Shown one piece after another: positions 18,595 to 22,743 of a DNA stretch of 64,000 nucleotides. This DNA is from Candidatus Nitrosopumilus sp. (lineage in GTDB: Archaea > Thermoproteota > Nitrososphaeria > Nitrososphaerales > Nitrosopumilaceae). Both the position numbers and the translations under genes were made by a program. The notes under the pieces are model-generated. The model did no database searches, was not told the DNA's origin, and saw nothing but the letters and a program-made list of their open reading frames with translations. The stretch is taken from positions 1 to 64,000 of the forward strand of contig JAOTTS010000002.1 in NCBI GenBank assembly GCA_029864335.1. Reading direction: 5' to 3'. Positions within the stretch are counted from its first letter, which is position 1. The number at the start of each line of letters is the position of its first letter.

Positions 18595-19388
18595 CAGAAT
18601 CTGGTAAAATCACAACTGATGTCGACTCCCTACGTTCAGAAATACGCGACAAAAGTGTTCGAGTCATTGATGTTAGACGCGAGGATGATTACAAACAAGA
18701 TCATATCCCAACTGCAGTTAATTTGCCATTAGCAAATCTTTTGTCTGATGATAGTCCTGAGCGTGTCTTAAAACTTGTAAATTCTATGGGGATTGATGAT
18801 GAGACCTCAGTTGTAGTCTATGATGATACATTTGGTGCATTAGCATCAAGAGTTGCATGGACATTGGAATATCTTGGACATTCAAATGTAACATTACTTG
18901 AAACCACTTATAGTCATTGGAAATCACTTGGTTTAGAAAATGATTCACAAACTCCTGAAATACAAAGTAAAGAGCACTCTATACACTTGCGACCTGAGAT
19001 TTTAGCAACTTCTGATTATCTGGAAAGCGTAAAAACTAGAGATGATGTCATACTAATTGATAATAGAGAACGACTAAATTTTCTTGAACAACATATTCCT
19101 GGAGCGATTAGTCTTCCTTATAGGACTCTTGCTAGTAATGAACATATTTTGCGCTCAAAAGAGGACATGAAACGATTACTTGATAATCGAGGAATTACTG
19201 GGGATTCAGAAATCATTACTTATTGTGGTAGTGTAGGTACTCTTTCTGGCTTGGCATATTATGCCCTAAAATCTGTGGGCCTTTCTAATGCAAAATTATA
19301 TGTTCGCTCATTTAAGGAATGGAAAAATCTTCAGAAACCTACCGAAAAACAAGAAGATGCAAATTACTGGGATTTATCTGCAGAATAA
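18582..19388 (+). CDS. Double-rhodanese sulfurtransferase
   Basis: 268 residues from ATG 18582, overlapping the reductase stop by 13 bases. It has two rhodanese domains: about 10-125 with VRVIDVRREDDY and a non-catalytic VVVYDDTFGA loop, and about 145-255 with the active-site Cys in ITYCGSVGTLSG. This is the 3-mercaptopyruvate/thiosulfate sulfurtransferase layout. It probably handles sulfane sulfur produced or consumed with the reductase. Confidence 0.9.
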   Translation: MCCLTESGKITTDVDSLRSEIRDKSVRVIDVRREDDYKQDHIPTAVNLPLANLLSDDSPERVLKLVNSMGIDDETSVVVYDDTFGALASRVAWTLEYLGHSNVTLLETTYSHWKSLGLENDSQTPEIQSKEHSIHLRPEILATSDYLESVKTRDDVILIDNRERLNFLEQHIPGAISLPYRTLASNEHILRSKEDMKRLLDNRGITGDSEIITYCGSVGTLSGLAYYALKSVGLSNAKLYVRSFKEWKNLQKPTEKQEDANYWDLSAE

Positions 19389-20506
19389 CTAATTTCATTT
19401 CTAAGCTTTTTAGTAATTGTCACTTCAATATTACCCAATAGAACTAACATTTTTTCTTTATTTTCAATTAGATAATCTTCACCTCTATCTTTTAGTCTAA
19501 TTTTCCATAATCTTATTTCTCTATGTTCGTCAAAGAAATTCTCTATCATTTGTTCTCCTGATTTTGCAGGATTTATGAATATGTCAAAAGTATCTATTGT
19601 CTTCTCAACGTTTTCATCTTCTATTGCTTCTCTAACTGATTGAATTGCATGACTTAGTTCTTTCAAATTCTTTACTGGTTTTGGCAAAGTCTTTCTTGTA
19701 ATTCCAAACAATCCTTTCTTTTCTTTTCCCATTTTTTCTGCAATATTTGGTGCAAGGTCATAAATTGGAATTCTACTTAAACCATCACGTTTTTCATTTT
19801 GTACAATTAATCCTTTTTCTAATAATTTTCTCAAAGCAGTTTCTGCATCTGTCTTGTCTAGAAATGTTGTCCATACAATTGCACCCAATGTATGATAGCC
19901 TTGTCTGACTGATTCTAAAACTACGACCTCTTCAATTCTTTTGAATCCTTCCTCGATTCTAACATTGGCAAAATCTTTGTCTCGAATTGATCTTCTTGCA
20001 TTTTTTACATCAATTTCAATTGAACGTTTCAAGGCTTCCAATGATTCTGGTACTTGATTAAGCAACGACAAGAAACAAGCTTTGTTATACCATGCCATTC
20101 CATATGTTGGATCTGACTCAATTGCTTTGTCAACTGAATCTAGTGCTTTTGAAAAATTTTTTTGCTCATAATGTACTAGTCCTTTTAAATTCCAAGCTTC
20201 TGGATTTGTAACATCTATTTCAAGAATTTTGTCATATACTTTTAGTGCTTCTCCATGATCTTCTAGGTGGAATCTTGCATATCCTAATTTCATCAATGTT
20301 TCAATATTGTCTGGATCAATTCGTAATGCTTGCTCAAATACAACTATGGCATCTTCTAATCTTTCATCTGCCATCAAATTGATTCCTTTTTTAAATAATT
20401 TCTTACGATTATAATCTGAATCAACTAGGCTTGTCTCTTCAACTTTATCTTTTTTTACTTTAGATTCTTCTATTTCCTTTGATTTTTTTCCGAAAGGTTT
20501 CTTCAC
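19364..20506 (-). CDS. TPR-repeat protein with C-terminal winged-helix-like part
   Basis: 380 residues from GTG 20506. A Lys/Glu-rich head of about 30 residues precedes four or more TPR units at about 35-175 (AIVVFEQALRIDPDNIETLMKLG and similar). A region near 215-270 (GAIVWTTFLDKTDAETALRKLL, then GLIVQNEKRDG) looks like a winged helix. It probably assembles protein complexes. It overlaps the rhodanese 3' end by 25 bp, convergently. Confidence 0.8.
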   Translation of the reverse strand: MKKPFGKKSKEIEESKVKKDKVEETSLVDSDYNRKKLFKKGINLMADERLEDAIVVFEQALRIDPDNIETLMKLGYARFHLEDHGEALKVYDKILEIDVTNPEAWNLKGLVHYEQKNFSKALDSVDKAIESDPTYGMAWYNKACFLSLLNQVPESLEALKRSIEIDVKNARRSIRDKDFANVRIEEGFKRIEEVVVLESVRQGYHTLGAIVWTTFLDKTDAETALRKLLEKGLIVQNEKRDGLSRIPIYDLAPNIAEKMGKEKKGLFGITRKTLPKPVKNLKELSHAIQSVREAIEDENVEKTIDTFDIFINPAKSGEQMIENFFDEHREIRLWKIRLKDRGEDYLIENKEKMLVLLGNIEVTITKKLRNEISYSADKSQ

Positions 20507-20578: not shown

Positions 20579-20605
20579 GATTCAAGCATCTAAATACAGA
20601 AATAC

Positions 20606-22426
20606 TTGAAATATACACAAACGAATGTGTCATCTCAACATAGAATAGAAATTCAAGGGCAGGCACCATTTAAACAATCAGGTGTCTATGAAGTTCAAAT
20701 TTCAGTAGCTGATAGTAAACCCTCTGATGATGCAATCCGTTCCATGCAATTCTCTGCTTTATGGCGTGGAAATTTTCACCTTAGAGTAAAAGATGGCCTA
20801 TTTTCTGAGAAAATCGGAACACCTGATAATCCGCTTCCTTCATCAATTGAAACTCTTGACACTATTTGGATCGTTGTAACTGATCTATTTTCTTCATTAC
20901 ATTCTGTATTTCATGTTCCATTGAAAAAATCCTCAACACAAGTGTACACTGAAACTCAAACTGAAACTAAAATTTCTGAAAATCTAAAAACTGAACAACC
21001 ACCAAAATCAACTGTAAGATCTTCAAGGTCTGCAAGTTTTCCTGGTGACAAAGGACATACTGGTCCACCTGGACCACCTGGTTATAAAGGACCTACTGGA
21101 CCGCTAGGACCACCTGGTGATAAAGGACCGCCAGGACCTACTGGACCGCTAGGACCACCTGGATCGATTGGAAATAAAGGGCCCACTGGACCGCTAGGAC
21201 CCCTTGGTGATAAAGGAGCAACCGGTGACAAAGGTCCTCAAGGTGACAAGGGCATTTCTGGTGATAAAGGAGCAACCGGTGACAAAGGTTCTACAGGTGA
21301 CAAAGGCGACAAAGGTGATAAAGGAATTGTTGGACCACCTGGTGATAAAGGGGAAAAAGGTTCAACTGGTCCAGTCGGTGATAAAGGAGCAACCGGATTA
21401 AAAGGTCCACCTGGTGATAAAGGGGAAAAAGGTCCAACTGGACCCCCTGGTGATAAAGGACTTTCTGGATTAAGAGGGTCTCCAGGGGAAAAAGGTGACA
21501 AGGGTCAACAAGGTCCACTTGGTGACAAAGGATTAACAGGTCCAACTGGACCCCCTGGTGATAAAGGAGCAACCGGTTTATCTGGTGTTCAAGGAGAAAA
21601 AGGTCTTCAAGGTTCATCTGGACCCCTTGGAGAAAAAGGTCCAACTGGACCCCCTGGTGACAAGGGTCAACCTGGTCCACTTGGTGACAAAGGATTAACA
21701 GGTCCACCAGGATCACCTGGTGACAAAGGATCTGTTGGCCAACCTGGACCCCTTGGAGAAAAAGGTAATCGTGGTGTTGAAGGACCCCCTGGTGACAAAG
21801 GTCCACAAGGTCTACAAGGTCCTACTGGATCTAAAGGTCTGACCGGAGTGCCAGGCCCACAAGGTGAGAAAGGAGAAAAAGGTGCTGTAGGACCCCTTGG
21901 AGAAAAAGGTAATCGTGGTGTTGAAGGACCCCCTGGTGACAAAGGTCCACAAGGTCCACAAGGTCCTGCTGGATCTAAAGGTCTGACCGGAGTGCCAGGC
22001 CCACAAGGTGAGAAAGGAGAAAAAGGTGCTGTAGGACCCCTTGGAGAAAAAGGTCCTACTGGCCCAATGGGACCGTCAGGAGAAAAAGGTCCACAAGGTC
22101 CACAAGGTTCACAAGGTGAACGTGGGACTACCGGACCGTCAGGAGAAAAAGGTCCACAAGGTCCACAAGGAATTCAGGGTCCACAAGGTGAACGAGGTCC
22201 AACAGGTCCAATCGGTTCTATTGGTGATCAAGGCCCAAGAGGTGATCAAGGTCCAGTAGGACCTGCAGGCCCAAGAGGTCCACCAGGTCCACCAGGAGAA
22301 AAGGGACCATCAGGTGGAATGTCATCTGAACAAAAAGCACTATTCAAAGATTTGTTGGAGATTTTAACAAACAAAAATGTCATCTCAACTGAAGAACAAA
22401 TTAAATTGATGAGTTATCTTTACTGA
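20606..22426 (+). CDS. Collagen-like Gly-X-Y repeat protein, 606 aa
   Basis: Open from TTG 20606 to TGA 22426. Residues 1-146 form a beta-rich head ([44 protein letters not shown]) and a Thr/Ser/Pro linker. From 21044 to 22312 there are exactly 141 Gly-X-Y triplets (423 residues) without interruption, dominated by [15 protein letters not shown] and GPQ. The C-terminal 37 residues ([16 protein letters not shown]...) are helical and may trimerise the chain. No Cys and no signal peptide are visible. Lys next to Asp/Glu can stabilise triple helices without hydroxyproline, as in bacterial collagens. Location and role are unknown; adhesion, a surface fibre or a tail-fibre-like structure are possible. 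Confidence 0.9.
21746..22033 (+). repeat. 144-bp tandem duplication inside the collagen region
   Basis: Positions 21746-21889 and 21890-22033 are two head-to-tail copies of 16 triplets (48 residues, starting [13 protein letters not shown]). They differ at only a few bases, for example cta/cca in one triplet and act/gct in another. The next 18 bp begin a third copy. This indicates recent slippage or unequal exchange. Confidence 0.85.
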
Positions 22427-22632: not shown

Positions 22633-22743
22633 TTATCGTCGTTTTGCTGCTTTTCTCTTTGGAGCTGCTTTTCTCTTTGGAGCTGCTCTAGTAGATGTTT
22701 TAGTTGATCTACGTTTAGTTACAGCTTTTCTTTTTGTAGCCAT
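22633..22743 (-). CDS. Very basic 36-aa DNA-binding-like peptide
   Basis: ATG at 22743-22741, stop TAA at 22635-22633. The product is about half Lys and Arg, with a repeated APKRKA unit (bases aaccgagaaaag-type duplication visible on the plus strand as tttctctttggagctgctt twice) and an AAKRR end. Composition is the same as the gene at 2-475. It resembles linker-histone tails or protamine-like peptides. Translation is supported by the intact frame and by the adjoining terminator. Confidence 0.6.
   Translation of the reverse strand: MATKRKAVTKRRSTKTSTRAAPKRKAAPKRKAAKRR

Follow-up and report, generated by a model that had tools for sequence, protein, structure and literature searches.

Nitrosopumilaceae rank with the sea's most abundant archaea and are key nitrifiers. 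The known collagen-like proteins of bacteria belong for the most part to the cell surface or to virions. Surface proteins likewise make up most of the bacterial collagen-like proteins characterized so far (PMC8968730). Among archaea, genes annotated as 'LPXTG-anchored collagen-like adhesin' are highly expressed at low salinity in Nitrosotenuis chungbukensis MY2, and one protein with this label was detected in the MY2 proteome (PMC13037477). In marine Euryarchaeota, disordered proteins described as 'putative collagen-like' are among the most expressed (PMC5069720). The literature that we searched, subscription papers aside, contained no description of the Nitrosopumilaceae gene analyzed here, except for a possible mention in the MY2 study (PMC13037477).

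The gene lies in a 64,000-nucleotide stretch of Candidatus Nitrosopumilus sp. DNA, which we refer to as the window. It occupies a plus-strand open frame at 20606-22426 (606 codons counted from TTG) whose product begins with a head, continues through a linker and a collagen tract, and closes with a short tail. The first-pass annotation had begun the protein at TTG 20606, a start that we dropped. In many relatives, the segment corresponding to 20606-20626 contained an in-frame TAA or TAG or a frameshift, while the downstream GTG or ATG was kept; the codon at 20627 was GTG in 42 of 49 copies and ATG in the other 7, with SSQ directly after it in most copies. Because TTG 20606 also sits inside a conserved promoter-like block, translation most likely begins at GTG 20627, which would yield a protein of 599 residues. 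The block, recovered as a phylogenetic footprint from 48 distinct same-genus upstream regions, is in line with the earlier claim that the gene has its own promoter, as judged by sequence conservation. No RNA family matched in the region of the gene. The features are as follows.

20586-20626, plus strand: conserved promoter-like block, consensus cgATc.aAAtac.gAAAtactTgaAA.at..acaaacga.T
20589-20597, plus strand: TATA-like TCTAAATAC, centered about 33 nt before the GTG
20606-20626, plus strand: TTG and following codons, probably untranslated leader/promoter, with stops or frameshifts in relatives
20627-20938, plus strand: head, beta-rich N-terminal domain (residues 1-104), from start conservation and AlphaFold2
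20939-21043, plus strand: linker, low-complexity, T/E/K/S-rich, variable, predicted to be disordered
21044-22321, plus strand: collagen tract, with 141 Gly-X-Y triplets ending at 22312 and GGM ending at 22321
22277-22294, plus strand: GPP-GPP cap close to where the tract ends C-terminally, a candidate nucleus for the triple helix
22322-22423, plus strand: tail, 34 residues with two predicted short amphipathic helices, near-invariant across the family

Glycine occupied every third residue from 21044, with the 141st triplet (GPS) ending at 22312 and a 142nd (GGM) extending the run to 22321. The original count of 141 unbroken triplets at 21044-22312 was therefore exact, or 142 if GGM is included. 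Since no other frame of the window had more than four Gly-X-Y triplets in a row, a run of this length is not due to chance. Pfam Collagen (PF01391) matched at E 7.3e-70, with 231 bits against a gathering threshold of 27.2. Proline was found 56 times at X and 21 times at Y, and the translated frame contained no cysteine, as had been noted before. The remark that the chain carries no hydroxylation cue also held: no prolyl-hydroxylase candidate (2OG-FeII_Oxy_3, PF13640) matched in the genome (G000), where positive controls were detected. By this absence of a prolyl 4-hydroxylase-type enzyme, the protein does not group with the hydroxylated, animal-type collagens.

The distribution of charge was another matter. 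Many Lys-Gly-Asp/Glu steps had been reported, but the tract contained only three KGD and four KGE for its 42 lysines, and Lys/Arg-Gly-Asp/Glu steps were under-represented (8 of 49, against 14.1 expected). Triplets with an acid at X and a base at Y, Gly-Asp/Glu-Lys/Arg, numbered 39 of 142 against 14.1 expected, and these acid-base triplets (GDK, GEK, GER) recurred with a period of four triplets, or 12 residues. Periodicity in the window tract reached z scores of 5.5, 5.6, 4.0, and 3.7 at lags 4, 8, 12, and 16; at lags 4 and 8, the relatives tested averaged 4.9 and 4.3, values that come from related copies and hence not from independent tests. Identity of the X-Y pairs rose to 0.146 at lag 4 from about 0.065 at neighboring lags, whereas identity at the third base of glycine codons did not rise at this lag (0.431 vs. 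0.42-0.44) and showed a small increase, to 0.485, at lag 8 only. This combination indicates that the charge ladder is kept mainly at the protein level. A recent 36-bp DNA duplication was considered as the source of the period and rejected, as synonymous sites give it no support. In Nitrososphaeraceae, a collagen whose charged triplets sufficed for this analysis peaked at lags 6-7 instead.

AlphaFold2 modeled the trimmed head domain (about 100 residues) as beta-rich, with a pLDDT of about 95 and a pTM of 0.82, consistent with the beta-rich head predicted at first pass, and gave a pLDDT below 50 for linker residues 102-139. The head had no significant match in PDB, BFVD, Pfam, or PHROGs; a resemblance to the Ig-like ligand-binding region of SgrA (5fce) was weak (TM about 0.5, E 0.07-0.3) and was not taken as evidence. 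The 34-residue tail was the best-conserved part of the protein, near-invariant across Nitrosopumilaceae, and its two predicted amphipathic helices agree with the helical C-terminus proposed previously. It had no Pfam or PDB relative, and its identification as a SHOCT-like or other known domain, for which Pfam gave no support, was discarded. Just before the tail, 80 of 102 tracts, a set in which some are cut short by contig ends, had GPPGPP among their last 8 triplets; elsewhere, 0.026 would be expected in a window of this kind. A proline-rich C-terminal cap beside a helical tail is what a triple helix nucleated from C- to N-terminus would require, and the tail is a candidate trimerization or registration element. 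The frequency of the cap and the near-invariance of the tail make a trimer with caps, as first suggested, plausible at the level of sequence.

Collagen-like genes had been described as uncommon in ammonia-oxidizing archaea, which is wrong for Nitrosopumilaceae. A profile search detected the gene, nearly always as one copy, in 206 of the 250 family genomes; these covered 22 of 22 genera, and among good genomes the count was 122 of 131. Searching with the head gave matches in 49 of 100 relatives, all from the same genus. In a sample of 397 genomes from the phylum, 67 of 70 family genomes matched, and the gene was found in none of the 327 genomes outside Nitrosopumilaceae. Named relatives with the gene were Nitrosopumilus, Nitrosarchaeum, Nitrosotenuis, and 'Nitrosomaritimum', the first three of which support the reading as a collagen-like protein of an archaeon. 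The search for homologues and their neighbors that the first-pass annotation proposed returned a family-wide gene, mostly in the same syntenic spot. The neighbors run in the order sulfite reductase-like gene, rhodanese gene, divergent TPR gene, collagen gene, and convergent GTPase gene, and the set was the same in most loci with enough contig room. The window gene shows the features of what we define in the present analysis as the 'Nitrosopumilaceae core collagen family': the head, one unbroken tract, the EQKALFK...QIKLMSYLY tail, and a place between the TPR gene and the GTPase gene.

Many assemblies break within the collagen gene. Among seven good genomes without a match, four (G005, G015, G042, G112) had a neighbor of the gene 0-0.5 kb from a contig end, and one (G187) was missing the whole neighborhood. 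In the remaining two, G039 (L206) and G127 (L202), the usual neighbors stood beside other genes (a CNNM-like gene; PIMT and Hsp20 genes), and these are possible cases of true loss or rearrangement. One assembly (G041) carried two near-identical copies of the locus, L092 and L093 on contigs C20 and C23, which are probably strain variants, and a contig assigned to a Phycisphaerae MAG (L189) carried an archaeal locus with rhodanese and TPR neighbors and is probably mis-binned.

Two further observations concern the genes beside the collagen gene. The TPR protein gene (19364-20506, minus strand) is divergent from it, shares its upstream region, and is adjacent to it in most loci of the family. Convergent with the collagen gene is a tiny lysine/alanine-rich, histone H1-tail-like ORF (22633-22743, minus strand; MATKRKAVTKRRSTKTSTRAAPKRKAAPKRKAAKRR); of 27 relatives tested, 22 had a longer version with APKRKAA repeats in this interval, making this a second conserved repeat protein beside the collagen.

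The prospect, raised at first pass, of a tract interrupted in all relatives did not materialize: across 60 distinct complete copies, 7,346 triplets ran without a break, and there was never a second run. Tract length in these copies ranged from 89 to 163 triplets, with 124 the commonest (15 copies), and the shortest tracts of other genera had 69. Purifying selection acts on the gene, with dN/dS of 0.08-0.16 in the tract, 0.12-0.20 in the head, and 0 to 0.08 in the tail. The third base of the glycine codons varies while glycine is retained. Tracts of equal length (123-125 triplets) shared 58% of their triplets in register, compared with 6% after shuffling, and the C-terminal part of the tract was the most conserved in individual comparisons. 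We conclude that this is a protein-coding, vertically inherited, single-copy core gene of marine and soil Nitrosopumilaceae.

In a small-genome genus (g48; 0.8 Mb), one locus (L231, genome G289) kept the head and a diverged tail around a tract of only 10 plus 22 triplets, while a second (L232, genome G287) was cut by a contig end. Near-loss of the tract with the head and tail kept indicates that the long rod is not needed everywhere. In another genus (g38), the collagen gene of L236 (genome G140) lay in several frames with its tail still readable, which reflects either sequencing error or decay.

The same-genus copies checked contained no hydrophobic N-terminus, signal peptide, or membrane segment and no LPXTG (LP.TG/A) motif, and sortase (PF04203) had no match in the genome. 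The Nitrososphaeraceae collagens (L245, L246) and another collagen frame of MY2 carry signal-like hydrophobic N-terminal segments; related archaea can thus export collagens conventionally, and the signal-less Nitrosopumilaceae protein seems not to be designed for such export. Archaeal proteins are also able to leave the cell without a recognizable signal. The protein may reside inside the cell or may be exported to the S-layer by an unrecognized route, and we prefer the cytoplasm only slightly, given the lack of a signal peptide, membrane helix, or wall anchor.

Together, these observations lead us to propose, with moderate confidence, a C-terminally nucleated homotrimeric collagen rod bearing three beta heads. 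This would probably be a structural element that stays inside the cell or leaves it by an unconventional route. The gene's own promoter, at about 20586-20626, would drive transcription, and translation would start from GTG 20627, as its conservation suggests. Three chains would be joined by the conserved C-terminal helical tail, and the adjoining GPP-GPP cap would nucleate a triple helix that zips toward the N-terminus. If triple-helical, the 141-142 unbroken triplets would form a rod with a computed length of about 122 nm without cysteine or hydroxyproline (about 106 nm for relatives with 124 triplets). The pairs of opposite charge, which recur every 12 residues (about 3.4 nm), may favor in-register packing of rods side by side, and at the other end of the rod the three predicted beta heads, on flexible linkers, would bind a partner. 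An internal scaffold or spacer would be the most economical location, or else the S-layer, reached by unrecognized export. Only tentatively do we suggest that the protein is an intracellular, unhydroxylated triple-helical rod, about 60-140 nm long across species and carrying the 12-residue charge ladder, that acts as a cytoplasmic scaffold or spacer; we know of no established prokaryotic precedent for such a role.

The protein could instead be a collagen adhesin or envelope reinforcer associated with the S-layer at the cell surface, which would leave the cell by an unknown export route and function like Scl/BclA-type proteins. This seems somewhat unlikely to us, although it would match the location of most characterized bacterial collagen-like proteins (PMC8968730), and MY2, with its expressed collagen-like adhesins (PMC13037477), has an orthologue of the gene (L180). 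When two MY2 collagen pieces were scored against the SclB model, which goes by the name of LPXTG-anchored collagen-like adhesin, this orthologue came out nearer (167 bits, the other piece 44), but it is far short of the 325 cut-off, which the other piece does not reach either. MY2 has two other collagen-bearing pieces besides L180, and L180 is one possible candidate for the reported adhesin (PMC13037477). In one of the other pieces (L244), a signal-like N-terminus is accompanied by alanine/lysine repeats, and in L240 collagen is followed by FG-GAP-like repeats; the two may belong to a single large surface protein that is divided over different contigs. What weighs against a surface adhesin is that the same-genus copies checked lack a signal peptide, a membrane segment, and an LPXTG motif and that the genome lacks a sortase, whereas the second MY2 frame and the Nitrososphaeraceae collagens do carry signal-like segments.

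Other readings fared worse. Disorder predictors read collagen tracts as disordered, and the top-expressed 'putative collagen-like' proteins of marine Euryarchaeota are described as disordered (PMC5069720), yet we find it improbable that this is a highly expressed, disordered low-complexity protein whose Gly-X-Y pattern forms no triple helix: glycine is unbroken over all 7,346 triplets while third codon bases vary freely, proline lies mainly at X, and a GPPGPP cap closes the tract, which is beyond what disorder alone demands. It is very improbable that the protein is a tail fiber of a virus, tailocin, or contractile-injection system, in which collagen would space an attachment head from a tip. 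Such fibers lack signal peptides, and the Gly-X-Y stretches do match many PHROGs tail-fiber families, but these matches fall on the generic repeat or the linker and the head alone is unmatched. Moreover, no relative was found in 2.9 million viral contigs, phage records, or plasmids, and the chromosomal place between housekeeping genes is constant across the family; a plasmid origin was dropped for the same lack of a plasmid match. Finally, tandem repeats in the gene (e.g., 144 bp x 2.1 at 98%) and the many assembly breaks could suggest a young, functionless DNA repeat or an annotation artefact, a reading to which we give practically no credence and which is refuted by family-wide synteny, purifying selection, and the conserved head, tail, and promoter block.

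Returning to the structural rod, all genera sampled keep a single-copy collagen gene at one position, and its product carries no export signal; this suggests a structural protein of importance, one that annotation masks under labels, 'LPXTG-anchored adhesin' among them, that are generic or misleading. Natural tracts vary between about 69 and 163 triplets, and one lineage has nearly lost its tract; together these provide a comparative series on the purpose of the rod, and the same species series would be useful for studying triple-helix stabilization without hydroxyproline. A collagen-like protein is in itself of a known kind. As far as the literature searched shows, what is new is the family-wide single-copy status, the signal-less design, the corrected start, the uncharacterized head and tail, and the protein-level 12-residue charge ladder.

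Compared with known systems, the protein shares a collagen-like annotation with those of the marine Euryarchaeota, likewise abundant marine archaea, which belong to another phylum and were compared by annotation only. It shares Gly-X-Y tracts with the collagens of other ammonia-oxidizing archaea, the Nitrososphaeraceae (L245, L246) and MY2 (L244), which differ in their hydrophobic signal-like N-termini and flanking domains, lack the head and tail, and have shorter tracts (26-52 triplets seen, with L244 cut by a contig end). With collagen-containing phage tail-fiber families such as phrog_6320 and phrog_1806 it has in common a collagen spacer and the absence of a signal peptide; this likeness is limited to the repeat, as the head has no viral homologue and the archaeal gene is a chromosomal core gene. 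The bacterial proteins Scl1/SclA, Scl2/SclB, and Lcl (NF038330, NF038329, NF046116) share its long uninterrupted Gly-X-Y tract, proline at X, charged residues, and non-collagen flanks, as well as the absence of cysteine and of any hydroxylation machinery found. All NCBIfam scores were under the curated cut-offs (NF038329, 242 bits vs. 325; NF038330, 236 vs. 400). In contrast to these bacterial proteins, the archaeal protein has no signal peptide, LPXTG motif, or sortase, its head and tail are unrelated to theirs, and it is the product of a single-copy archaeal core gene with a 12-residue charge period.
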